In this document: piece after piece, positions 69-30,340 of the stretch
How positions within the stretch are numbered: the first letter of the stretch is position 1
Layout of the letters: each line of letters opens with the position of its first letter
IMG/VR virus record: IMGVR_UViG_3300017991_000297
Span: 1-31,532 of that record
Strand: one strand, 5' to 3'
Source of the DNA: a virus
DNA: 31,532 bases
Position numbers and translations under genes: made by a program
The notes under the pieces: generated by a model
The model's database searches: none
What the model was told of the DNA's origin: nothing
The model's input: only the letters and a program-made list of their open reading frames with translations

Positions 69-1772
69 ATGAGTGATGATTCCAAAAAAGATGATCCAAA
101 AAATGTAATCGATATGCGCCGGAAGGTCGAGGCCCGGATACAAGAGGAAAAGAAGCAACTCAGCGATTCCGGTGGCGGGGATGGTGGAGAGAAGGGATCG
201 AGGTTCGGGGATGCCGGCGACGGGGACGGTGGAAAAATCGATTCGAGGTTCATCCTCGATTGTCTGAACGCGAATGAGCTCGGTGACGGCAGCCTTTTCA
301 AAACCCTGCACCAGGGCAAGTTCGTTTTCTGCAAATCAATGGATGCCTGGCTGGTGTGGAACGGCCACCACTGGGAAATCGATATCCTGGACCAGGCCCT
401 GGCCGCCGTCGAGCGGGTTGTCGACACCTACCTGGATGAAGTCGACCGGATCAACGAGCAGCTTCGCGGGATGTACGGCAACCCTGACCAGAAAGACGTT
501 ATTTCGCGCTTGGAGGCAACAAGAACCAATCTTTTTAAGCGTGTAAGCAGGCTGCGGTCCAGCAAGGGCCGGAAGAACTGCCTGCATTTCGCCCATACCT
601 GCGATGAGCCCATGGCGATCAGGGGGGATGAACTGGACCGCAACCCTTATCTGCTGGCCTGCAAAAACGGTGTTATTGACCTGAAAACAGGGCTCCGCCG
701 TGACGGCCGGCCGGAAGATTACCTCCTGAAAGCCAGCCCGATCGAATGGACGGGCATCGATGAGGCCTGTCCTTCCTGGGAGAAATTTTTAACAGAGATT
801 TTTTCCGAAAACGAGCAGCTGGTCAAATTCGTTGACCGGGTGCTTGGATACGCCCTGGTGGGGATCAGCCCGGAGCACATCATCGTCGTGCTGTCAGGAC
901 GCGGGAGAAACGGAAAAGGCACCATTGTCGATATCCTGTCTTTTATCCTCGGCCGTCTGGCCGGGCCGATCCGGGCGGAGATGCTGCTGGACCAGTCGAG
1001 ATACGCGAGTTCGGCGGGACCCACGCCGGACATCATGGCTTTGCGGGGCCTCCGGATGGCGTTTGCCTCTGAAACGGACGAAAACGCCAAAATCAGCCCC
1101 TCGAGGGTGAAGTGGCTCACCGGGAATGACGAGCTCACCGGCAGAAACCCGCACGACAAGTACGAAACAACGTTCAGGCCCACACACACGCTTTTTCTTC
1201 TTACCAATCACAAACCTCACGCGCCGGCGGACGATTTCGCCTTCTGGGAGCGGGTCCGGCTCGTTCCTTTCGAGCTGTCTTACGTCGACCGGGATATCCG
1301 GAGTGAAAACGAGCGTGTAGCCGACAAGGATCTGCCGGAAAAGTTGAAACTGGAAGCCTCGGGGATCCTGGCCTGGCTGGTGAGGGGCTGCCTGCTCTGG
1401 CAGAAAGAAGGCCTGGACCCGCCGCCGGTGGTGAAGAAAGCCACGGAGGAATACCGCCGGGACGAGGACATCATGGCGGATTTTATGGATGAATGCTGTA
1501 TTCTGGACGAAACGGTGGAGGTGGGCGCGTCGAATTTATACACCGTGTTCGAGGCCTGGTGGAAGATCAACGTTCACAAAAACCCGCCCAAGCAAAAATG
1601 GTTCGGTAAAATCGCCGGACGTCGTTTTGAGCGGGCAAAAGTCAGCGGCACTTACCGGTATTATGGAATCCGTCTCCTCGATCACATTCAGGAATATGTG
1701 GACACCTCGGAGCGTATCGATGAGCGGGAATTGACCGATTTATTGAAATTCGGGGTCCAATCGGGGGCATAA
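69..1772 (+). CDS. Phage P4/D5-family SF3 replicative helicase (primase-helicase C-terminal type)
   Basis: 567 aa. It probably unwinds the phage origin and forks. After a low-complexity acidic and Gly-rich N-terminus (about residues 1-60) comes a D5_N-like region containing WLVWNGHHWE near residue 100. A superfamily 3 helicase core follows: Walker A GRGRNGKGT at about residues 278-286, a Walker B-like region with ASETDEN at about 332-338, and a sensor-like LFLLTNHKPH at about 378-388. Residues about 471-555 form the C-terminal winged-helix type domain of P4 alpha and Pox D5 proteins, which in P4 alpha binds origin DNA. This last domain is repeated in the ORF6N protein at 4232-5140. No primase catalytic domain is obvious; the separate gene at 2054-3406 supplies it. 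The ATG at 69 follows AAAAGG, which overlaps a GGTCCT box (58-63). Confident of the family; origin binding is inferred. Confidence 0.9.
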   Translation: MSDDSKKDDPKNVIDMRRKVEARIQEEKKQLSDSGGGDGGEKGSRFGDAGDGDGGKIDSRFILDCLNANELGDGSLFKTLHQGKFVFCKSMDAWLVWNGHHWEIDILDQALAAVERVVDTYLDEVDRINEQLRGMYGNPDQKDVISRLEATRTNLFKRVSRLRSSKGRKNCLHFAHTCDEPMAIRGDELDRNPYLLACKNGVIDLKTGLRRDGRPEDYLLKASPIEWTGIDEACPSWEKFLTEIFSENEQLVKFVDRVLGYALVGISPEHIIVVLSGRGRNGKGTIVDILSFILGRLAGPIRAEMLLDQSRYASSAGPTPDIMALRGLRMAFASETDENAKISPSRVKWLTGNDELTGRNPHDKYETTFRPTHTLFLLTNHKPHAPADDFAFWERVRLVPFELSYVDRDIRSENERVADKDLPEKLKLEASGILAWLVRGCLLWQKEGLDPPPVVKKATEEYRRDEDIMADFMDECCILDETVEVGASNLYTVFEAWWKINVHKNPPKQKWFGKIAGRRFERAKVSGTYRYYGIRLLDHIQEYVDTSERIDERELTDLLKFGVQSGA

Positions 1773-2047: not shown

Positions 2048-2053
2048 GTGTTT

Positions 2054-3406
2054 ATGAACGTACTCGAGTTGATCCGGTCCAGGGGTACCCGGGTCCGAAA
2101 AGTTGCCTCGACCAAGGGGGGTGAATACCATTCTCCGTGTCCCGGATGCGGTGGGAAAGACCGGTTTCATGTCTGGCCGGAGCAGAACGAAGGAAAGGGC
2201 TCCTGGTGGTGCCGGGGCTGCGGCAAGGGGGGGGATAATGTCCAGTTTCTGATGGATTTCGACAACAAGAGCTTCGCCGAGGCCTGCAGGGCCCTGGACA
2301 GGCCGATTCCGGGAAGGAAAGCGCACAGGGCCCCGCAACTGAAGGGCAACAACCGAAACAAATCCACCTGGCGGCCGCCGGTGTACGGTGATCCCGGCGC
2401 CCTCTGGCAGGAAAAAGCCCTGAAACTGGTCGGGTGGGCCCATGAAAAACTGATGAAAAATGAAGAGCAGCTGGCCTGGCTGGGGGCCCGGGGGATCACT
2501 CAAGAAACGGCGGCCGCTTTCAAGCTGGGCTGGAACCCGGAGGACCGCTGGCGGCCCAGGGAGTCCTGGGGGCTGCCCACGGAGATGAAAGAAGGCAGGA
2601 AAAAAAAGCTGTGGATCCCCGGGGGCCTGGTCATTCCCTATCTGGTCGAGGGACAGGCGCAGCGGATCCGAATCCGGCGCCCGGGCAGCCAGGAGCCGAG
2701 GTATTATGTGCTTCCAGGTTCCGGTATGGCGCCGATGATCATCGGTAAAGACCGAGAGGCCTTCGTGGTGGTGGAGTCGGAACTGGATGCCCTGATGCTT
2801 TCCGGGACCCTCGATGAGCCGGTCGGCATCCTGGCCCTGGGTTCATCTTCCGCCCGGCCGGACCAGTCGAGCTTCGAAGCCCTGCAGGCCTCGATCCACA
2901 TCCTGAACGCCCTGGATTTCGACCAGGCCGGCGCCGATGCCTGGGCCTGGTGGAGCGCGCACTTTCCCCAGGCCGAACGGTGGCCGGTACCGGCCGGGAA
3001 AGACCCCGGAGAGGCCTTCGCGGCCGGCGTCGACCTGGGGCTGTGGGTGCTGTCGGGCCTGCCGCCCGTGTTCCACGTCGGACGTTCTTCCCTGGAAAGT
3101 CAACAAAAGGGGAAAGCGGAAAATATTCTTACGGCGCCGGCCCCGGAAGCCGCTGAAGCAAGCCAGGGGCCGCCGCGGGTGGATTCTCCCATCGATGAGC
3201 TGTTCGGGCTCCTGCGATCGAGCCCCGTAAAAATCAGGGTGACGCCGGAGCGGATGTCGATCCTTGAAAACGAGGCATGGGCCGGTAAAAACTGGAATAA
3301 AAGCAAGCGGATATCGGAGCTGGTGTATCTCGACGGCGAGGTGTTTGAATATCTGAACGCCCATCCGGACCAGACAATTACCAAGGATAACTTTTGGGGG
3401 GATTGA
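2054..3406 (+). CDS. DNA primase with zinc-binding and Toprim domains
   Basis: About 450 aa; synthesises RNA primers for phage replication. A CHC2/P4-type zinc-binding domain sits at the N-terminus, with CPGCGGKDRF and WWCRGCGKGGD giving a Cys4 site (pairs about 24 residues apart). A central Toprim domain has the glutamate motif VVVESELDAL (about residue 240) and the acidic motif LDFDQAGADAW (about residue 290). The C-terminal 100 residues look like a linker plus a small helical domain that could contact the helicase. A GTG at 2048 is in frame, but the ATG at 2054 is better placed after the GGGGGGTG ribosome binding site at 2043-2050. Separate primase and helicase genes replace the single fused alpha protein of phage P4. 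The AT-rich candidate origin lies directly upstream. Confidence 0.88.
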   Translation: MNVLELIRSRGTRVRKVASTKGGEYHSPCPGCGGKDRFHVWPEQNEGKGSWWCRGCGKGGDNVQFLMDFDNKSFAEACRALDRPIPGRKAHRAPQLKGNNRNKSTWRPPVYGDPGALWQEKALKLVGWAHEKLMKNEEQLAWLGARGITQETAAAFKLGWNPEDRWRPRESWGLPTEMKEGRKKKLWIPGGLVIPYLVEGQAQRIRIRRPGSQEPRYYVLPGSGMAPMIIGKDREAFVVVESELDALMLSGTLDEPVGILALGSSSARPDQSSFEALQASIHILNALDFDQAGADAWAWWSAHFPQAERWPVPAGKDPGEAFAAGVDLGLWVLSGLPPVFHVGRSSLESQQKGKAENILTAPAPEAAEASQGPPRVDSPIDELFGLLRSSPVKIRVTPERMSILENEAWAGKNWNKSKRISELVYLDGEVFEYLNAHPDQTITKDNFWGD

Positions 3407-3602: not shown

Positions 3603-3757
3603 AGGAATTATCCATCAGAATAGGGCCGTTCGGGCTGTTTTTCAGGTTCAAATCGTCGGGTGTTCGGCACTCGGCAAGGGTGATGGTGACCATGCGGGGG
3701 AAAAATGTCCGGGCCTGGCGGCGGAGGCTCATGAGGAAATATGGCAAAAAATCTTGA
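3599..3757 (+). CDS. Small basic hypothetical protein (52 aa)
   Basis: The ATG overlaps the stop of the preceding 53-aa gene (ATGA), suggesting translational coupling. The product is strongly basic: its last 20 residues include RAWRRRLMRKYGKKS, which could bind nucleic acid. No family was recognised. The end of this gene contains a perfect TTGACA hexamer (3754-3759) that may be the -35 element for the RNA downstream. Confidence 0.5.
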   Translation: MKELSIRIGPFGLFFRFKSSGVRHSARVMVTMRGKNVRAWRRRLMRKYGKKS

Positions 3758-3782
3758 CATACCGGCCAAAAAACAGTACCTT
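3754..3782 (+). promoter_or_regulatory. Candidate sigma70 promoter for the C4-like RNA/antirepressor operon
   Basis: A perfect -35 TTGACA at 3754-3759 is followed after 17 bp by TACCTT at 3777-3782, a weak -10. Immediately downstream is a 6-bp inverted repeat TGGTTT/AAACCA (3782-3787/3793-3798) with a 5-nt loop, placed where a repressor operator could lie. Confidence 0.35.
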
Positions 3783-3789
3783 GGTTTCA

Positions 3790-3945
3790 TTTAAACCATG
3801 GGTACGCTTCCGGCTCCGTGTCCCATACAGGCCATGGAAGGGGGTGTAAGTAACATTGAATCAGTACGGTTCAAGTGGCCCGGATACCGCGAGGTCCGGG
3901 GCGTTCCTATGGGCGTGAATACCACTTGGGCCGTTTCTTTTTTTT
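3790..3945 (+). ncRNA. Structured RNA resembling phage P1-type C4 antisense RNA
   Basis: Visible pairings are: CTTCCGGC (3807-3814) with GCC (3831-3833) plus GGAAG (3836-3840), with a two-base bulge; CAAGTGG (3872-3878) with CCACTTG (3922-3928), stacked directly on CCCGGA (3879-3884) with TCCGGG (3895-3900); and a possible long-range pair CCCATA (3822-3827) with TATGGG (3908-3913). The outer stem is soon followed by a T-run (3934-3945), as in an intrinsic terminator. Segment TCCTATGG (3905-3912) is complementary to CCATAGGA (3970-3977) at the ribosome binding site of the next gene. A second segment, GGGCC (3928-3932), is complementary to GGCCC (3946-3950). In phage P1, C4 RNA blocks antirepressor translation through two such complementary segments. 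The downstream ORF6N protein is antirepressor-like, so the context fits. The Rfam match has not been tested. The weakly coding reading frame across it (from 3798) is probably not translated. Confidence 0.55.
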
Positions 3946-3969
3946 GGCCCCATATTTTAAATATTCAAA

Positions 3970-3980
3970 CCATAGGAGGT
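3970..3980 (+). promoter_or_regulatory. Ribosome binding site of the antirepressor operon, complementary to the C4-like RNA
   Basis: The sequence CCATAGGAGGT contains the Shine-Dalgarno for the ATG at 3987 and decides that start. Its first eight bases are the exact complement of TCCTATGG at 3905-3912, and a G.U pair extends the match by one. Pairing would hide the ribosome binding site. Confidence 0.55.
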
Positions 3981-3986
3981 GCAAGT

Positions 3987-4235
3987 ATGTCTAGTTTAAA
4001 AGAAATACCTACGTTAGATCGATCCAGCCGGTCCTCGAAAACAATCAAATTCCCCAAGAAAAACAGACGAATGCAAGAAATCCCGGAAGTCGAACCGAAG
4101 GGGTTGGGGGAAGGAGATCCCGCATTTTTCGCGAAAATCTTCCTCGATCTGGCCATGCAGGAACTCAAGAGGGTCGTCGGGGAACGGGACGCGTTGGAAC
4201 TGGCGCTGAAAACAATCAAGGGGGTGAAATCATGA
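3987..4235 (+). CDS. Small hypothetical protein (82 aa) upstream of the antirepressor-like gene
   Basis: The start is fixed by ATAGGAGGT six bases upstream; the frame stays open back to 3798, but that part overlaps the structured RNA. The N-terminal half is basic and Ser/Lys-rich (RSSRSSKTIKFPKKNRR). The C-terminal half is a predicted amphipathic helix ending KRVVGERDALELALKTIKG. The stop overlaps the next start (ATGA), so translation is likely coupled. In phage P1 the small icd gene sits in the same place, between c4 RNA and ant. The resemblance is positional only; no sequence similarity is claimed. Confidence 0.65.
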   Translation: MSSLKEIPTLDRSSRSSKTIKFPKKNRRMQEIPEVEPKGLGEGDPAFFAKIFLDLAMQELKRVVGERDALELALKTIKGVKS

Positions 4236-5140
4236 ATGAAATCGTCGAAATCGAAGGGAAAGAGGTAGAGCGGATCGAATATAAAAATCAACATGTTGTC
4301 ACGTATAAAACAATAGACCATCTTCATGACCGGCCTGAAGGAACGGCGAAACGAACATTTTCTAAACATAGGGACCGGTTCGAAATGGGATATCATTATT
4401 TTGAGGTGCCATATGAAGAGTGGTCACAGATACCCGCGGTACGTTTTACGTACGCTGAAGAAACGGGTCAGAGAAATCCGATAAATTTGTTCACCGAGGC
4501 TGGATACCTTCTCCTGGTCAAACCCTTCCGAGATGATCGGGCCTGGCGGGTCCAGGACAGGTTGATCAAATATTATTTCGCGGCGAAAAAGATGATTCAT
4601 GAGGAAAAGATCGCCTCGTTCACGCCCCTGGCCCGGGAGTTTTACAACGCCAAGCGGCTGGCCGTCCACATGGGGCTGCCGAAACAAGAGGCGGTGTGGC
4701 AGGCGAACGAGGCGGTCAAGAAGCTGTTCGGCCACGACTGCGCCCGGCTGATCGGGGCGGAGGCCTATGTCTTTCCCCCTTCCCCGAAGGCGCCGGCGGA
4801 CCCGGTGGCGGAATTTATCGGGGATTGCTGCATCGCGGACGAACCGGCGCAAACCGGGGCGACGGTTCTGTACACCGTGTTTCAGGTCTGGTGGCGGGCC
4901 AGGGGGTACAAAAGGCCCCCCGCCCAGAAGTGGTTCGGCCGGGTCTTTTCCCAGCATTTCGACCGGGCCAAGGTCAGCGGCACCTACCGGTATTACGGGG
5001 TCCGCCTCCTGAACCACCTCCGGGGGTGCCTGGATGACTCGGGGCGGTTTGACAGGGCCGCGCTGGAAAGGCTGCTGAAAACAGACCTTTCTTCGGAACC
5101 GGCGGCGCCCATCTATGCGAATGAAGGAGGATTTGTATGA
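4232..5140 (+). CDS. ORF6N-domain antirepressor-like protein fused to a D5/P4-helicase C-terminal domain
   Basis: 302 aa. Residues about 5-115 match the ORF6N domain of phage antirepressor and KilA-N type regulators (VEGKE/VVTYKTIDHLHDRPEG, then a KHRDRFEMGYHYFEV stretch). Residues about 194-285 are clearly homologous to residues about 471-560 of the helicase at 69-1772: both contain LYTVF, an AWW or VWW tryptophan pair, QKWFG and AKVSGTYRYYG in the same order. The similarity persists at DNA level, for example around 1635-1665 and 4969-4999. The gene follows the 82-aa ORF by ATGA overlap and leads by ATGA into the next small gene. It probably binds DNA or a regulator. The helicase-type tail suggests binding at the same GGTCCT sites, giving replication control. 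That role is inference. Confidence 0.8.
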   Translation: MNEIVEIEGKEVERIEYKNQHVVTYKTIDHLHDRPEGTAKRTFSKHRDRFEMGYHYFEVPYEEWSQIPAVRFTYAEETGQRNPINLFTEAGYLLLVKPFRDDRAWRVQDRLIKYYFAAKKMIHEEKIASFTPLAREFYNAKRLAVHMGLPKQEAVWQANEAVKKLFGHDCARLIGAEAYVFPPSPKAPADPVAEFIGDCCIADEPAQTGATVLYTVFQVWWRARGYKRPPAQKWFGRVFSQHFDRAKVSGTYRYYGVRLLNHLRGCLDDSGRFDRAALERLLKTDLSSEPAAPIYANEGGFV

Positions 5141-5340: not shown

Positions 5341-6078
5341 TTGAATACCATGCAGGAAAAAACAGAAAAGTTGCAAAAAAGAATCAACGCCCGGGAGCGG
5401 GAGGACCTGGAGCTGCTCCTGGGCGTGCTCGAGAAGAAACGGGCCGAGTTCGAAGTTGACGGCTCCGAACCCGCCGGCCAGGCCTGGGAGGGCGCCCGGG
5501 ACCGGGCGGAGAAGTTCGTGGACCGGCTGTATGAGAAGTATTTCGTGGAGGACCCGGCCTTCGACAGCCTGGCGGCGGTGCTGCGGAGCCTCAAGGAGCA
5601 GGGGTACAAGGTCCAGAAATCGAAGCTCTACCAGGACCGGAAGGCGGGCCTGATCAAGGTGCGGCCGGACCATTCCGTGGTCGAATCGGAGGTTTTGGCC
5701 TACATCCAGCGGGCGGGCCTGCAGAAAAAATGGGACCACTCCGGGGAGATGGACGAAACGTTCTCCGATAAAACCCGGAAGGAGGTGACCAGGCTGGAGC
5801 TGCAGATCGAGCGGGAACGGTTCGATCTGGACAAAAAAAGGGGCAAATACCTGCTGAAAACGGACGTGGAAACGGCCCTGGCCATCCGGGTCGGGGTGTT
5901 CGAGGCGGGCCTGAAGCACCTTTTTCAGACCCGCTTCCGGGAATGCATCCAGCTGGCGGGGGGAAACCCCAAAAAAACACAAATGGCCATCGAATATTGG
6001 AACAACGGCATCGACGAGCTGCTGGACGAGCTGGCCCGGATGGAAGAAATCGAGGTGGTGGCTTATGGCGGGGCTTGA
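5341..6078 (+). CDS. Terminase small subunit (probable)
   Basis: 245 aa. It overlaps the large terminase gene by 14 nt, the usual place for the small subunit that recognises the packaging site. Residues about 60-105 (LRSLKEQGYKVQKSKLYQD) look like a helix-turn-helix. The middle is charged and probably coiled coil (about 140-180), and the C-terminal half is helical, consistent with an oligomeric small terminase. The ORF opens with TTG at 5341; an ATG at 5350 is in frame, and neither has a clear Shine-Dalgarno, so the start is uncertain. The assignment relies on position and helix-turn-helix character. Confidence 0.7.
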   Translation: MNTMQEKTEKLQKRINAREREDLELLLGVLEKKRAEFEVDGSEPAGQAWEGARDRAEKFVDRLYEKYFVEDPAFDSLAAVLRSLKEQGYKVQKSKLYQDRKAGLIKVRPDHSVVESEVLAYIQRAGLQKKWDHSGEMDETFSDKTRKEVTRLELQIERERFDLDKKRGKYLLKTDVETALAIRVGVFEAGLKHLFQTRFRECIQLAGGNPKKTQMAIEYWNNGIDELLDELARMEEIEVVAYGGA

Positions 6079-7984
6079 AAGACCCATTCGCATAGACCCC
6101 AGATGGATCCCGGCGGACTTCCCGGACCCGGAAAATTTCAATTTCCGGTTCAAGTTCACCGGGGGGGAAAAAAAGATCATGCGCAAACCCCGGCCGATCC
6201 CGGCCTCCGATTGGGCGGAGCGGAACCGGGTGCTGACCATGTCGAGCGTCCCGGGCCGGTGGAAAAATTCCACCACGCCGTACCTCGCCGGGATCATGGA
6301 CGCCGGCTTTTTCAAATCGGTGGACACGGTCATCATTTGTGCTGCGCCCCAGACCGGAAAATCGGAATGCGTCAACAACTGCATCGGCTACGCCGCGGAC
6401 CGGCGGCCGGGATCCGTGCTCTATATCTACCCCGACGAGATCACCGCCCGGGAAAACTCGAGGGACCGGATCCTGCCCATGTTCACCTCGAGCCCCCGGC
6501 TCAAATCCTACATGACCGGCCTGGACGACGACGCCTCGTACCTCCGGATCAAGCTGCGGCACATGCAGATCTACATGGGGTGGGCGCGGTCGGCGGCCAG
6601 GCTTTCCAACAAGCCTTTGCCCTATGTCGTGTTCGATGAAACGGACAAGTATCCCGCTACCGCCGGGAAGAAAGAGGCGGACCCGATCTCCCTCGGTGAA
6701 AAGCGGACCCGGACCTTCCGGTCCCTGCGCAAGATCTGGAAACTGAGCACCCCCACCACGGAGGACGGCCCCATCTGGAGGGCGCTGACCACCGAGGCCC
6801 AGGTGGTGTTCGATTACCACGTCCGCTGTCCGGTGTGCGGGGGCGTCCAGCTGATGCGGTTTGAAAACATCAAATGGCCGGAGGACCAGCGGGACCCCCA
6901 GCGCGTGAAAGAAGGGGAGCTGGCCTGGTACGAATGCGAAAAGTGCCCGGCCCGCTGGACCGACGAAGACCGGGACGACGCGGTGCGCCGGGGGGAATGG
7001 CGGGCCCGGGACAAGGGGCTGGCGCTGATGACGTATCTTACCGCCCACCAGCCGAAGGCCATCGGTTTTCACATCCCTTCCTGGCTGTCTCATTTTGTGA
7101 GCCTGTCCGAGGTGGCCGCGCGTTTTCTGAAGGGGCTCAACAACAAGGAGGCGCTGAAGGATTTCTTGAACGCCGACAAGGCCGAGCCCTGGAAGTTCTA
7201 CACCCGGGAGCGGGAAGAGGATCGCATCCTGGCCCTGGCCGACGACCGGCCCCGGGGAACGGTCCCGGGCCGGGGGGCCGTGGCCGCCCTGGTGGCCGGC
7301 GTGGACACCCAGGACGACGGGTTCTATTACGAGATCCGGGCCTTCGGGTGGGGCATGGAAAAAGAGAGCTGGTGCGTCCGGGAAGGGTTCGTGACCACGT
7401 TTGACGCCCTCCGGCAGGTGCTCTGGGAGGACGAATACCTGGACGGGGACGGAAACAGGTACCTGGTCCGGTTCGCGCTCCAGGACGCCATGGGGCACCG
7501 CACCGCCGAAGTGTACGACTTTGTCCGGGGGCACCGGGGGAGGATCCTCCCCACCAAGGGGGAGCAGCGGATGAACCAGCCCCACGCCTATTCCAATATC
7601 GAGTATTATCCCGGGACGAAAAAGCCGATCGTCGGCGGGGTCCAGCTGCTCCGGGTGAACACCCAGTATTACAAGAACGATCTTTCCAACATCCTGGAGA
7701 TCGCCCCGGCGGACCCCGGGACGTGGCATTATCACGCGGATGTCACCCTGGACTGGGCCCTGCAGATGACGGCGGAGCACGTGAACGAAAAAGGCGTATG
7801 GGAATGCCCTTCCGGGAGGGCCAACCACGCCTGGGACTGCGCGGTCCTCTGCCTCGCCGCGGCCGACGTGATCGGGGTGAAGCACTGGAAGCGGCCGTCG
7901 GCCGAAGAAAAAACGGACAAGAGAATGCCCGAAAAAACCCGCCCCGGGGGCTGGATTGAAAAGAAAGCCGGCTGGCTGGGCTGA
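6065..7984 (+). CDS. Terminase large subunit, lambda GpA family
   Basis: 639 aa; the ATP-driven motor and nuclease that packages phage DNA. The ATPase part has a Walker A-like APQTGKSE at about residues 93-100 and a Walker B VVFDETDKYP at about 188-197. A zinc-ribbon-like CPVCGG...CEKCPARW follows at about residues 255-300. The nuclease part begins at about residue 408 with VAGVDTQDDGFYYE, a catalytic acidic motif, and ends near DWALQMTAE and NHAWDCAVLCLAA. Length and motif order are those of the lambda GpA family (PF05876). A GAGGTGG ribosome binding site precedes the ATG inside the small-subunit gene. Confidence 0.95.
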   Translation: MAGLERPIRIDPRWIPADFPDPENFNFRFKFTGGEKKIMRKPRPIPASDWAERNRVLTMSSVPGRWKNSTTPYLAGIMDAGFFKSVDTVIICAAPQTGKSECVNNCIGYAADRRPGSVLYIYPDEITARENSRDRILPMFTSSPRLKSYMTGLDDDASYLRIKLRHMQIYMGWARSAARLSNKPLPYVVFDETDKYPATAGKKEADPISLGEKRTRTFRSLRKIWKLSTPTTEDGPIWRALTTEAQVVFDYHVRCPVCGGVQLMRFENIKWPEDQRDPQRVKEGELAWYECEKCPARWTDEDRDDAVRRGEWRARDKGLALMTYLTAHQPKAIGFHIPSWLSHFVSLSEVAARFLKGLNNKEALKDFLNADKAEPWKFYTREREEDRILALADDRPRGTVPGRGAVAALVAGVDTQDDGFYYEIRAFGWGMEKESWCVREGFVTTFDALRQVLWEDEYLDGDGNRYLVRFALQDAMGHRTAEVYDFVRGHRGRILPTKGEQRMNQPHAYSNIEYYPGTKKPIVGGVQLLRVNTQYYKNDLSNILEIAPADPGTWHYHADVTLDWALQMTAEHVNEKGVWECPSGRANHAWDCAVLCLAAADVIGVKHWKRPSAEEKTDKRMPEKTRPGGWIEKKAGWLG

Positions 7985-16362: not shown

Positions 16363-16835
16363 ACATGAACACGCTCCTTGCCAGCCTCCGGAACGCCGTT
16401 CACGACGACTCGGACCTCCAGTCCTGGTGCGCGTCGAATTATTCCAGGAACCACAAGGTGTATGTGGGCGTCGACACGCGCCGACCTCCGGCCGAAGACC
16501 AGTATCCGCTGGTCTATCTCTACCCGGTGGCCAAGCGCGGCGGCTACGGCCTGGGGACCCAGGATCATGTCATCGGCGCCGCCTGCGGGCTGGCCGATGA
16601 AGACACGCGGGCGGTGTCCGGGAAGACCAACCTCGTCGAGCTGGCCGGGGTCCAGCACCTGAGGACTTTCCGGAAGTATGTCGACGCGGCCATCCTGGGC
16701 GCGGAGCTGGGGGATCTTACGGCGGGTTCGGTGGAGATCGCGTTCGAGACCCTCGATTTCTTTCCGTTCTTCCTGGCCACGATGGAGTTCACGTTCACGA
16801 ACGAATACGCCCAGGGGGACGATCCGTTCGAGTAA
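16359..16835 (+). CDS. Tail terminator protein, lambda gpU-like (first copy)
   Basis: 158 aa; position between Z-like and tail-tube genes implies it caps the tail tube. The ATG at 16359 overlaps the previous stop; the frame is open much further upstream, but that part lies across the Z-like gene and is not used. Motifs include LRNAVHDDSDLQSWC, EDQYPLVYLYPV and DFFPFFLATMEFTFT. A second, highly similar copy lies at 27013-27597. The gpU assignment is from gene order and length. Confidence 0.72.
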   Translation: MNMNTLLASLRNAVHDDSDLQSWCASNYSRNHKVYVGVDTRRPPAEDQYPLVYLYPVAKRGGYGLGTQDHVIGAACGLADEDTRAVSGKTNLVELAGVQHLRTFRKYVDAAILGAELGDLTAGSVEIAFETLDFFPFFLATMEFTFTNEYAQGDDPFE

Positions 16836-25204: not shown

Positions 25205-27013
25205 ATGATACGCGACTTAGGGGTAGTGACACCGGGATCAACGATAGTTGTTCCTTTTCATACGTTTTCATCCGATGATCCCAGCGCGTCGATGACGATC
25301 ACCGGGCTGGCGGTGACGGACATCGAGATATATAAAAACGGCGGTACGACTCAGAGATCAAGCGATAGTGGCTATACCCTGCTTGATACTGATGGAATAG
25401 ATTTTGATGGAACAACAGGCATTCACGGGGCTTCCATCGATCTGTCTGACAACTCCGATGCGGGGTTTTATGTCTCAGGTGCGCAGTACACGGTCGTAAT
25501 TGCCAGCATAACCCTTGATACTGCGACAATCAACTTCATTCCCGTTACATTCAGGATCGGGTATCCGACCGCTATCCTCAACACCACGATTGCGACGCTG
25601 GCTTCTCAAACCAGCTTTACTTTAACGGCGGGACCCGCGGAGGACGATGCCTTAAACAATATGTGGATAATCATTCACGATATAGCGAGTGCCGTACAGA
25701 TGGGGTATGCCGTGATCAGCGACTATACCGGAGCGACAAAGACGGTGACTTTGGCGGCCGGCACAACATTTACGGCGGCGCAGGGTGACAACATTGCGAT
25801 CATGGGGCCGATGCCGCTACAGCCTACGGTGGCAGGTCGGACAGCCGATGTTCAGTCTACTGGCGAGATGGATTCCAACCTGACGATGATGGGCGGGGAG
25901 GCACAGTCGGCAACCGACTTGAAGGATTTCGCTGACGCCGGCTATGACCCGGCGACCAACAAGGTCGAGGGGGTCAAGACCGTTGATACGACAACGGAAA
26001 ATACCGACATGAGGGGAACCGATGGCGCGAATACGACCACGCCTCCCACGGTGGCCGAGATCCAGGCGGAGCTGGAGGAGGACGGGGCGAGTCTGCTCGA
26101 TACCATCAGGGACATCGTCTCGAGCGGGACCTATGGGAATTCGGCCCTGAAAACCCTGATCGATGCCGTTCCGACCGCTTCCGAGATCCAGGCCGAAATG
26201 GAGGAAAACGGGGCAAGCGTATTGGATACAATCAGGGATGCTGTTGAAAACGGAACATATGGATTGAGTGCGCTTCAAACCTTGATCGATGCGCTTCCCA
26301 CAGCTGCTCAGATCCAGACCGAATTGGAAGAGAATGGATCGAGTGTCCTTGATTCCGTTCGTGACTATCTTGAGAATGTCACTTATGGATTATCTGCCCT
26401 AAAAACTTTAATTGATGCTATTCCCACCGCTTCCGAGATCCAGGCGGAGCTGGAGGAGGACGGGGCGAGCCTGCTCGACACCATCAGGGATATCGTCTCG
26501 AGCGGGACCTATGGGAACTCGGCCCTGAAAACCCTGATCGACGCTATACCAACCGCCGCGCAGAACCGGGCGGAAATGGATTCAAACAGCACACAGCTGG
26601 CGGCCATCCTGTCGAAGATGCTTAAATACTTTCAGTTAGCGTTACGGTCTGACTCTGCCATTGAAACGGACAATGCAACGGAACTGACGGCGATCAACGC
26701 GGACGGCGGATCCGGCGCCGGCGATTTCAGCGCCCAGACCGATTCGGGAGAGGCCCTGCAGGCCTTGATTGCCGCGCTGAACAATATCTCGATAGCGGAT
26801 ATTTTCACGGGCACGGAGGTCGACAATGACGGCACCTCGATCAACCTTACCGGAGCCATAAAACTGCTGTTGAGCGTGCTGACGGGTGAAAGTTTCGGCG
26901 GAGGCACTGATACCGTCGGTTTCAGGGACCTCCAGGACACCAAAAACCGGATATCGGCGACGGTTGACACGGATGGCAACAGGACGGCCGTCGGGACCAG
27001 GGACGCAACATAA
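25205..27013 (+). CDS. Tail fibre-like protein with 42-residue repeats
   Basis: 602 aa, ATG immediately after the previous stop and AGGAGG upstream. The N-terminal ~210 residues are beta-rich (IRDLGVVTPGSTIVVPFHTF) and may anchor to the tail. Residues 281-448 consist of four tandem 42-residue units with the pattern PT..EIQ.ELEE.GAS.LDT.RD......YG.SAL.TLIDA, followed by a partial fifth unit. The repeats are strongly helical and suit a trimeric coiled-coil shaft. The remainder is Asp/Ser/Thr-rich, with a final beta-like segment. The same layout is common in phage fibres and their chaperone-assembled shafts. Confidence 0.68.
   Translation: MIRDLGVVTPGSTIVVPFHTFSSDDPSASMTITGLAVTDIEIYKNGGTTQRSSDSGYTLLDTDGIDFDGTTGIHGASIDLSDNSDAGFYVSGAQYTVVIASITLDTATINFIPVTFRIGYPTAILNTTIATLASQTSFTLTAGPAEDDALNNMWIIIHDIASAVQMGYAVISDYTGATKTVTLAAGTTFTAAQGDNIAIMGPMPLQPTVAGRTADVQSTGEMDSNLTMMGGEAQSATDLKDFADAGYDPATNKVEGVKTVDTTTENTDMRGTDGANTTTPPTVAEIQAELEEDGASLLDTIRDIVSSGTYGNSALKTLIDAVPTASEIQAEMEENGASVLDTIRDAVENGTYGLSALQTLIDALPTAAQIQTELEENGSSVLDSVRDYLENVTYGLSALKTLIDAIPTASEIQAELEEDGASLLDTIRDIVSSGTYGNSALKTLIDAIPTAAQNRAEMDSNSTQLAAILSKMLKYFQLALRSDSAIETDNATELTAINADGGSGAGDFSAQTDSGEALQALIAALNNISIADIFTGTEVDNDGTSINLTGAIKLLLSVLTGESFGGGTDTVGFRDLQDTKNRISATVDTDGNRTAVGTRDAT
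26045..26587 (+). repeat. Tandem 126-bp coding repeats in the fibre gene
   Basis: Units at 26045-26170, 26171-26296, 26297-26422 and 26423-26548, then a partial unit to 26587. Units 1 and 4 are almost identical in DNA, with a handful of apparently silent differences, whereas units 2 and 3 have diverged in both DNA and protein. Confidence 0.9.
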
Positions 27014-27597
27014 TGCTGACAGCGGGGTACTTTCAGTCAAGGTACTGGCCGGAGGACTACTGGCAGGACCGTTACTGGCCCGATTACGGGGAAGGGTCCC
27101 TGCCCGAGGACCCGGGCGCCAACACGCTTTTGATCAGCCTGCGGAACGCCGTACACGACGATTCGGACACCCAGACCTGGTGCACGGCGAATTATTCACG
27201 GAACCACAAGGTGTACGTCGGGCTCGACACCCGCGAACCCCCGGCCGAAGACCAGTACCCGCTGGTGTATATCTACCCGGTGGTCGAGCGCGCCGGCTAC
27301 GATCTGGACAGCCAGGACCTGGTCATCGGCGCAACCTGCGGGATCGTCGACGACGACACGAGAACGGTGGCGGGGAAGACCAACGCCGTCGAGCTGGCCG
27401 GGGTCCAGAACATAGAGACCTTCCGGAAATACGTCGAAACGGCCATCGTGGGCGCGGAACTGGGCGACCTGATGATCAGCACGGTGGAAATCGCCTACGA
27501 AACCATCGATTTCTTTCCGTTCTTCATCGCCACGATGGAGTTCACCTTCACGGACGATTACGCCCAGGGGGACGACCCCTTCGCGTACGACGATTAG
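27013..27597 (+). CDS. Second tail terminator-like protein with a YW-repeat N-terminus
   Basis: 194 aa. Residues about 38-192 are roughly three-quarters identical, by eye, to the tail terminator at 16359-16835 (LRNAVHDDSDTQTWC, YSRNHKVYVGLDTR, EDQYPLVYIYPV, DFFPFFIATMEFTFT). The DNA is also clearly related. The extra N-terminus carries three aromatic repeats (RYWPEDYWQDRYWPDYG), a pattern seen at the ends of some phage tail operons. ATG overlaps the fibre gene stop by one base. Its function at the distal end of the tail operon is unknown. It could be a regulatory or tip-specific copy, or a recent duplication. Confidence 0.75.
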   Translation: MLTAGYFQSRYWPEDYWQDRYWPDYGEGSLPEDPGANTLLISLRNAVHDDSDTQTWCTANYSRNHKVYVGLDTREPPAEDQYPLVYIYPVVERAGYDLDSQDLVIGATCGIVDDDTRTVAGKTNAVELAGVQNIETFRKYVETAIVGAELGDLMISTVEIAYETIDFFPFFIATMEFTFTDDYAQGDDPFAYDD

Positions 27598-29260: not shown

Positions 29261-30340
29261 TCATTTGTCTAGGTTTCTGTTCAAGCCGGGCAGTTTTCCG
29301 ATGGTTTTTTCGGATAATTCTTTTGAAATATGCTGGTAATGTTTCATGGTTGTTTCGGTCCTGGAATGCCCTATCATCTGGCTTAGGGTTTTGAGGTCTC
29401 CACCGTCTTCCAGGATTGCGGTGGCGAAGGTATGCCGGAAAGCATAGGGCGGAAGCCGGCGTTTGATCCCCGCGGCCGTTTTGGCGCGATTAAAGGCTTT
29501 TATGATCCTTTTTACGGGTTGTCCCCGATAATGAACGATGTATTCCGGTACGCTTTCGGCTTTAAACTCATTTTTCCAGGCGATATCTTCTTCGTACCAC
29601 TGGCAAAGGCATTCCCAGAACTCTTCGTGGATCGGAACGACCCGGATCCTGGGACCCCTTTTTTTGGCCGATGTGATCGTGACCGTCTTCCGGTCCCAGT
29701 CAATGCTGCTCCATTGCAGATAGGTCAGTTCGGCCATACCGGGGCGAAGGCCGCTGTAATAGGATGTTAAAATCGCCCTTTGCACATGGCCGGCAGCCTT
29801 ATCCAGAATTTTATTGATTTCCTCTTCGGTGGCCGGGTAGATGATCGCGTCGTCGCGTTCAGGCAATTTGTATCCGGCCATCGGGTTTACCAGGATATGC
29901 TGACGTTCCGGGGCGGCCGCCCAGTTTAGAATCGCCCTTATGTCTGATAATTCCCTGTGGATCGTGGTCCGTTTTTTGCCGGCGTTCAAGCGTTTTTTCA
30001 CAAAACGATCGATCCTGGCCGGGTTCATGCTGTTGGCTTTTACCGTGTCGAATTCCGGCAGGTATACCCCGTTGATCTTGTATTTCAGGTTGTCCTGTGT
30101 CGATTTTTCAGTCCGGGCCAGTTTTGCCAGGCAATAGGCATCCACCAGTTCGCCAAACGTAGGGGATTTCGTTTCCACCGGTCTTTTGGTATATTCCCGG
30201 ATCCCCAGGGACTTCTCATATTCCACCGCGGCCCTTTCTCCCTCAATGCCGCGGCCGAAATATTTCCTTGAATATCCGCTTTTTTTGGTCTTATCCCGCC
30301 ACTGAACGATCCAGCGGCCGTCTTTTAGTTGGTAAAGCAT
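29261..30340 (-). CDS. int: Tyrosine-type site-specific integrase
   Basis: 359 aa. N-terminal arm-binding-like region (RWIVQWRDKTKKSGYSRKYF), SAM-like core-binding domain about residues 60-155, and catalytic domain with Arg199 (SGLRPGMAE), Lys226 or Lys227 (TSAKKRGP), Arg302 and His303 (YAFRHTF), His325 (IGHSRTE) and the nucleophile Tyr335 (KHYQHI). The first His of the HxxR box is replaced by Tyr299, a known variation. It catalyses integration and excision at attP/attB; the attP core lies downstream of the gene. The start has AGGGGAC upstream, and the previous gene ends directly before it, so the two are cotranscribed. Confidence 0.95.
   Translation of the reverse strand: MLYQLKDGRWIVQWRDKTKKSGYSRKYFGRGIEGERAAVEYEKSLGIREYTKRPVETKSPTFGELVDAYCLAKLARTEKSTQDNLKYKINGVYLPEFDTVKANSMNPARIDRFVKKRLNAGKKRTTIHRELSDIRAILNWAAAPERQHILVNPMAGYKLPERDDAIIYPATEEEINKILDKAAGHVQRAILTSYYSGLRPGMAELTYLQWSSIDWDRKTVTITSAKKRGPRIRVVPIHEEFWECLCQWYEEDIAWKNEFKAESVPEYIVHYRGQPVKRIIKAFNRAKTAAGIKRRLPPYAFRHTFATAILEDGGDLKTLSQMIGHSRTETTMKHYQHISKELSEKTIGKLPGLNRNLDK

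Follow-up and report, generated by a model that had tools for sequence, protein, structure and literature searches.

A probable c4-2-type antisense RNA of the C4 clan preceding an ORF6N antirepressor-type operon in a D5-type phage

The C4 clan of phage-borne RNAs comprises the C4 RNA of phages P1 and P7 (RF01695), which is processed by RNase P to an RNA of about 77 nt, and the c4-2 motif (RF02944, clan CL00128), reportedly introduced in NAR in 2017. In the open literature searched, no paper naming the c4-2 motif and no tested function for c4-2 RNAs were found. In canonical C4, segment b' occludes the ribosome-binding site of the target, segment a' provides specificity, and the RNA is processed into a separate molecule (PMC5320573). 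Two further phage systems share parts of this organization, namely Gifsy-1, where the regulatory RNA IsrK is located by a small ORF (orf45) translationally coupled to an antirepressor gene (anrP), and P4, where the antisense immunity RNA CI is accompanied by two target copies, seqA and seqC (PMC4825925). The window analysed here is the entire 31.5-kb sequence (31,532 nt) of an IMG/VR virus record, in which the segment 3866-3936 (+) is in all likelihood a c4-2-type antisense RNA of the C4 clan that blocks translation of an antirepressor operon.

Genomic setting and structure of the element

The element lies between the replication and packaging genes of the window, in the following gene order:

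69-1772 (+): D5 helicase-primase
2048-3406 (+): CHC2-type primase, followed by two short ORFs and then the element
3987-4235 (+): small ORF of 82 aa, first gene of the operon, after the Shine-Dalgarno sequence AGGAGG
4232-5140 (+): ORF6N antirepressor-type protein of 302 aa with C-terminal Pox_D5, assigned with Pfam and PHROG
between 5140 and 6065 (+): a small ORF, then a possible terminase small subunit
6065-7984 (+): GpA-type large terminase
29261-30340 (-): integrase

A small ORF and an ORF6N gene had been named as the next genes when the DNA was read from its letters alone, and both are present, with the stop of the former and the start of the latter overlapping in ATGA. The protein encoded at 4232-5140 matched ORF6N (2.2e-14), Pox_D5 (3.8e-6) and the PHROG anti-repressor group (3.5e-29); the small ORF at 3987-4235 had no Pfam or PHROG match. 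Residues 190-288 of the ORF6N protein (window 4799-5095) share 52% identity with the C-terminal end of the D5 helicase that the phage itself encodes (69-1772), and comparable fusions were seen elsewhere, joining Rha to a D5-like C-terminus (L028:2803-3648) and an RNA polymerase alpha-CTD to Pox_D5 (L003:9809-10570). None of the scanned window proteins could be recognised as a CI-like repressor that might be the antirepressor's partner. Two strongly similar tail-type proteins appear in the ORF list at 16400-16835 and 27013-27597, about 10.6 kb apart, and the ORF at 25205-27013 carries repeated units of the type AEIQAELEEDGASLLDTIRDIVSSGTYGNSALKTLIDA.

The element and its surroundings comprise the following features:

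3754-3782 (+): putative sigma-70-type promoter of the RNA, read from the sequence and assigned by position
3786-3802 (+): possible partial upstream target copy (a1/b1-like), TTCATTTAAACCATGGG, near the predicted transcript 5' end
3803-3848 (+): strong hairpin separating the putative 5' end from the antisense RNA, in both minimum-free-energy and centroid folds
3866-3936 (+): c4-2-like antisense RNA, from RF02944 match, R1 model match, fold and descriptor match
3866-3878/3922-3934 (+): outer stem P1, 13 continuous bp in the fold
3879-3900 (+): hairpin I, with a UA bulge and a GCGA loop
3901-3916 (+): hairpin II, from the fold
3905-3912 (+): segment b', UCCUAUGG, made up of the hairpin II loop with its weak closing pairs
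3916-3921 (+): segment a', UGAAUA, in the junction, complementing the leader immediately 5' of b
3917-3921 (+): three-way junction strand, from the fold
3935-3945 (+): U-rich tract TTCTTTTTTTT after P1, putative intrinsic terminator read from the sequence
3962-3967 (+): target site a, UAUUCA, exact complement of a', 2 nt upstream of b
3970-3977 (+): target site b, CCAUAGGA, overlapping the Shine-Dalgarno sequence AGGAGG at 3974-3979

The folded region ending in a T-run, as originally noticed, was recovered: the fold of 3785-3955 has an energy of -64.4 kcal/mol (z -2.24; 6 of 200 shuffles equally good), and the U-rich tract is present. Its core, 3866-3934, forms a three-way junction in which the 13-bp outer stem encloses two hairpins, and a structural descriptor of this shape had a single match in the window when both strands were scanned. 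The upstream TTGACA (3754-3759) is likewise where it had been noted; the -10 hexamer that follows after a 17-nt spacer (TACCTT, 3777-3782) is poor, and a consensus promoter scan did not flag the site. A simple terminator scan, which requires a short loop, did not flag the tract at 3935-3945.

At Rfam gathering thresholds no family matched in the window. Below them, 3866-3936 (+) gave a full-length match to c4-2 (27.9 bits, E 7.4e-4, in a search of 361 nt against 4227 families), the only c4-2 match in the window and under the gathering score of 41 bits. The C4 covariance model, to which the sequence-only reading had pointed, was silent, RF01695 being absent from the matches to 3700-4060 up to an E of 10, in a search that kept only the best overlapping match of a clan; it was the related c4-2 model that matched, below its threshold. 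Upstream in the window the a1/b1 element model (RF03163) had no match. A model built from 27 Bacteroidota c4-2 RNAs with the window left out (R1) found the element as its sole match in the window (18.9 bits, E 0.0021). In the family alignment, which is model-fitted and so leans towards its own structure, 94.6% of pair cells are standard and two-sided changes occur at 23 of the 24 pairs. Since the Rfam score cut-off was tested and the score falls below it, the window RNA is not filed as a formal RF02944 member but is regarded as a divergent relative in the same clan.

The complementarity between RNA and leader is exact in both places. As already noted in the sequence-only reading, TCCTATGG at 3905-3912 is the perfect complement of CCATAGGA at 3970-3977, over the Shine-Dalgarno region, and 9 nt separate site b from the ATG at 3987; b' occupies the same position as in most of about 60 relatives. 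The second segment turned out to be a different one from that first put forward. The pairing of GGGCC (3928-3932) with GGCCC (3946-3950) does occur, yet several such 5-nt matches exist and relatives use a different position; it was rejected as the functional segment in favour of TGAATA (3916-3921) with TATTCA (3962-3967). The 2-nt gap between sites a and b matches c4-2 leaders, and the pair UGAAUA/UAUUCA stands in place of the usual c4-2 pair UAGGA/UCCUA, a matched change. Both segments jointly give a duplex energy of -20.8 kcal/mol, and their pairing score of 14 (8 + 6 nt), found nowhere else on the + strand of the window, was reached by 14 of 50,000 dinucleotide-shuffled leaders. Local alignment of the upstream stretch 3786-3802 with the target (3961-3979) gave a score of 20, reached by 31/2000 and 24/2000 shuffles; with p about 0.015, and at chance by the strict two-segment score, this is only suggestive of a partial upstream target copy.

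Relatives in Bacteroidota, in phages and upstream of ORF6N genes

The c4-2 RNAs collected for comparison came from one IMG/VR contig, one Muribaculaceae genome and Bacteroidota genomes (about 45), with a c4-2 match in 11 of 395 genomes of a phylum sample and 15 of 393 of an order sample. A pattern scan of genome contigs gave 13 matches, among which L044 alone was recognised as a real c4-2. At most c4-2 loci the hairpin II loop (b') and the 3' junction strand (a') exactly complement adjacent stretches of the leader: a' is usually UAGGA, and the leader carries site a (UCCUA), then 2-4 nt, then site b, ending 0-4 nt before the ATG. For 46 c4-2 loci plus the window, pairing of each RNA with its own leader averaged 10.09 vs 6.74 +/- 0.34 in permuted combinations (0 of 10,000 permutations reached the observed mean), and the window score of 14 ties for second-best in this 46-locus set. 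Matched changes of a' and a were found at two further loci (UGGUA/UACCA in L057, UAAGA/UCUUA in L082). A second target copy lies upstream of the RNA, near the promoter (score with the own upstream 11.9 vs 7.9 +/- 0.29; 0 of 2,000); this copy and the leader complementarity are features identified here rather than parts of the Rfam model. In most cases the RNA is followed by a short ORF, about 75-100 codons long, and in L035 a Rha-type gene comes after that ORF. Tandem c4-2 RNAs about 120-180 nt apart were seen in Bacteroidota genomes (L064/L081 and L065/L083).

A second group of c4-2-like RNAs, here the phage branch, is carried by contigs that we read as proteobacterial phages, from two Pseudomonadota loci and the protein families present rather than from IMG/VR hosts. 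The two loci are weak c4-2 matches in Pseudomonadota genomes (L182, 34.8 bits; L183, 34.0 bits) with a continuous outer stem as in the window, leaders complementing b' beside the Shine-Dalgarno sequence, and Rha-type genes downstream, one with a clear and one with a weak Pfam match. An IMG/VR pattern scan returned 41 stretches, about 16 of them c4-2-like elements, and in the phage branch only L189, L192, L206 and L191 lie just over the Rfam cut-off (41.5-41.7 bits). Own-leader pairing again exceeded that of permuted combinations (10.11 vs 8.18 +/- 0.36; 0 of 10,000; 17 loci, mostly proteobacterial-phage, plus the window), with the window score the best in the 17-locus set; L186, L191 and L096 did not show it. 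Four loci (L194, L214, L219 and L223) have similar downstream genes and four different but matched pairs of hairpin loop and leader, as expected for switching of immunity specificity. KilA-N and Bro-N proteins are among the genes directly following phage-branch RNAs, and an AntA protein is encoded further downstream in L194. In L191, a c4-2-like RNA (about 450-550, -) lies directly downstream of a tRNA-like sequence recognised by eye.

A model of the phage branch (R2), over-trained on the pattern that had collected its members, had no match in the window with filters on; without them it scored the window weakly (11.8 bits, E 0.0067 in 401 nt). The window is accordingly no close member of this branch. 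A family search of Bacillota was also negative (0 of 398); as the same tool missed the element when run on its whole own record, such negatives say little about weak variants.

Close homologues of the exact element were found neither in D5-phage relatives nor at 80 IMG/VR ORF6N loci. The D5 relatives L002-L034 have no ORF6N module between primase and small terminase, and an RNA of the window type, sought there, was not found; protein look-ups with the small ORF and the ORF6N protein in IMG/VR, phages and plasmids returned no close relative. Homologous leaders, whose alignment had been proposed as a check on the pairing, were not found in close phage relatives; matched changes of RNA and leader were found across the c4-2 relatives.

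The ORF6N target had been presented as a clear extension of C4 control, a claim that did not hold. An E. coli phage-plasmid (L036, 71.7 bits) and a Halomonas plasmid (L039, 67.1 bits) each carry C4 together with a1b1 just ahead of an ORF6N gene, and in L102, the closest IMG/VR ORF6N relative (50% identity over 116 residues), a C4 RNA (57 bits) precedes the ORF6N gene with a small ORF between. All three C4 RNAs are over the Rfam cut-off, so C4-controlled ORF6N genes are not new. The L102 RNA pairs CCUUUUGG with CCAAAAGG on the Shine-Dalgarno sequence and CUGUUAA with UUAACAG upstream; in L036 and L102 C4 uses the same two strands, with a and b about 22-32 nt apart, and in L039 a clear exact match comes from the a' strand only. 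At another ORF6N locus, L107, an int-alpA RNA (RF02996, 1411-1475) is located directly upstream of the gene.

Proposed mechanism and alternative explanations

The core of the sequence-only reading, a C4-like antisense RNA with complementarity to the operon leader in two places, is upheld by the model match, the family covariation and the matched RNA-leader changes. The RNA would be transcribed in the direction of the operon, just upstream of it, and end in the U-run. Pairing would join the hairpin II loop b' to the small ORF's Shine-Dalgarno region and the junction strand a' to the leader segment just upstream, so that ribosomes would be kept off the small ORF and, through overlapping or coupled translation at ATGA, off the putative ORF6N antirepressor; lysogeny would thereby be kept, and the locus would gain a swappable immunity specificity. 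A separate, translation-blocking RNA is the best reading in view of the published description of C4 (PMC5320573) and the coupling in Gifsy-1 IsrK-orf45-anrP (PMC4825925).

Action in the manner of P4 CI, through pairing with the nascent leader and premature transcription termination, with a translation block secondary or absent, is an unlikely alternative: the general layout of CI/seqA/seqC, an antisense RNA between target copies, is the same (PMC4825925) and a U-tract lies between the window RNA and its target, but b' covers the Shine-Dalgarno sequence in the window and in most relatives ends about 0-11 nt from the ATG, a placement that points to translation initiation, and a scan of the downstream leader on the + strand turned up no terminator-like site. 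For 3785-3990, the fold of minimum free energy joins b' to b within one molecule, as a cis-acting 5' leader element would if the same transcript served as an attenuator or riboswitch-like switch; the centroid structure of the same stretch drops this pairing, however, most transcripts would stop short of the target, to judge from the U-tract that follows P1, and canonical C4 becomes a separate RNA by processing (PMC5320573), making such an element a little less likely still.

That the upstream copy (3786-3802) and its hairpin act as an IsrK-like activator counteracting the antisense RNA, with net induction of the operon, is improbable. Upstream target copies close to the promoter do characterise c4-2 loci, as described above, and IsrK activates orf45-anrP through such an arrangement (PMC4825925), but the copy in the window is partial, marginally significant and fails the strict score. 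Least of all is to be expected from chance, with a fortuitous fold and fortuitous complementarity inside one 145-codon gene. From the ATG at 3798 one frame does stay open through the element (3798-4235), and the RF02944 match is below the Rfam cut-off; against this, two independent lines agree (model E-values of 7e-4 and 0.002, and a family-geometry pairing reached by 14 of 50,000 shuffles), and a good Shine-Dalgarno sequence precedes the ATG at 3987 and none that at 3798.

With a c4-2-type antisense RNA that blocks translation as the preferred reading, c4-2 RNAs would gain a testable mechanism with concrete base pairs, and the P1-type antirepressor switch would be extended to a D5-type phage. 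A wider view, which we favour by a modest margin over its negation, places the window in a largely unannotated, phage-carried c4-2-like branch and takes the C4 clan as one broad two-site antisense immunity system of Bacteroidota and proteobacterial phages, in which a new specificity arises when loop and leader are replaced in step, and in which antirepressor domains (ORF6N, KilA-N, Bro-N or Rha) are freely exchanged, the one present here being fused to a duplicate of the C-terminal domain from the phage's D5 helicase. The loci L194, L214, L219 and L223 would allow heteroimmunity switching by a few bases to be studied directly. The surprise is moderate, as both families are already in Rfam and C4 already precedes ORF6N operons.

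Comparison with known systems

With c4-2 (RF02944) the window RNA shares the three-way junction, a hairpin I with a 2-nt 5' bulge and a GNRA loop, and complementarity of hairpin II loop and junction strand to neighbouring stretches immediately ahead of the start codon in the following, short ORF. The two differ in the outer stem, most Bacteroidota members carrying a UAU/UAAA internal loop where the window has 13 continuous bp; this loop is also absent from phage-branch members, including L189, which passes the cut-off at 41.7 bits, and it may not be universal in c4-2. The proteobacterial-phage c4-2-like RNAs (L182, L183 and L186-L224, mostly below the Rfam cut-off) resemble the window in their continuous outer stem, in a hairpin I with a GNRA loop and in a b' that covers the Shine-Dalgarno region, for most of them about 6-11 nt upstream of the ATG. 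Their hairpin I reads GGUAUC...GACC, partly fixed by the search pattern, vs GGAUACC...GGUCC in the window, and KilA-N, Bro-N, Rha or small ORFs take the place of ORF6N as their targets.

The C4 RNA of P1/P7 (RF01695; c4-a1b1, RF03163) likewise has a three-way junction and a long continuous outer stem, places its b' loop on the ribosome-binding site and its a' junction upstream (in the window, as complementarity only), and precedes an icd-like small ORF and an antirepressor gene, ORF6N included. Hairpin I differs, however, and a and b are about 22-32 nt apart in C4 leaders and 2 nt apart in the window, which has no clear a1b1 element, unlike L036 and L039; the upstream target copy of c4-2 loci resembles that element. 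By sequence and a/b spacing, the window RNA is nearer to c4-2 than to C4. The RNA folds of IsrK and P4 CI are different from that of the window element, and IsrK activates rather than represses, so that the likeness to Gifsy-1 lies in a regulatory RNA beside a coupled small ORF and antirepressor gene, and that to P4 in an antisense RNA with two target copies. The window RNA is very probably a distant cousin of the C4 and c4-2 RNAs and not a new kind of switch.
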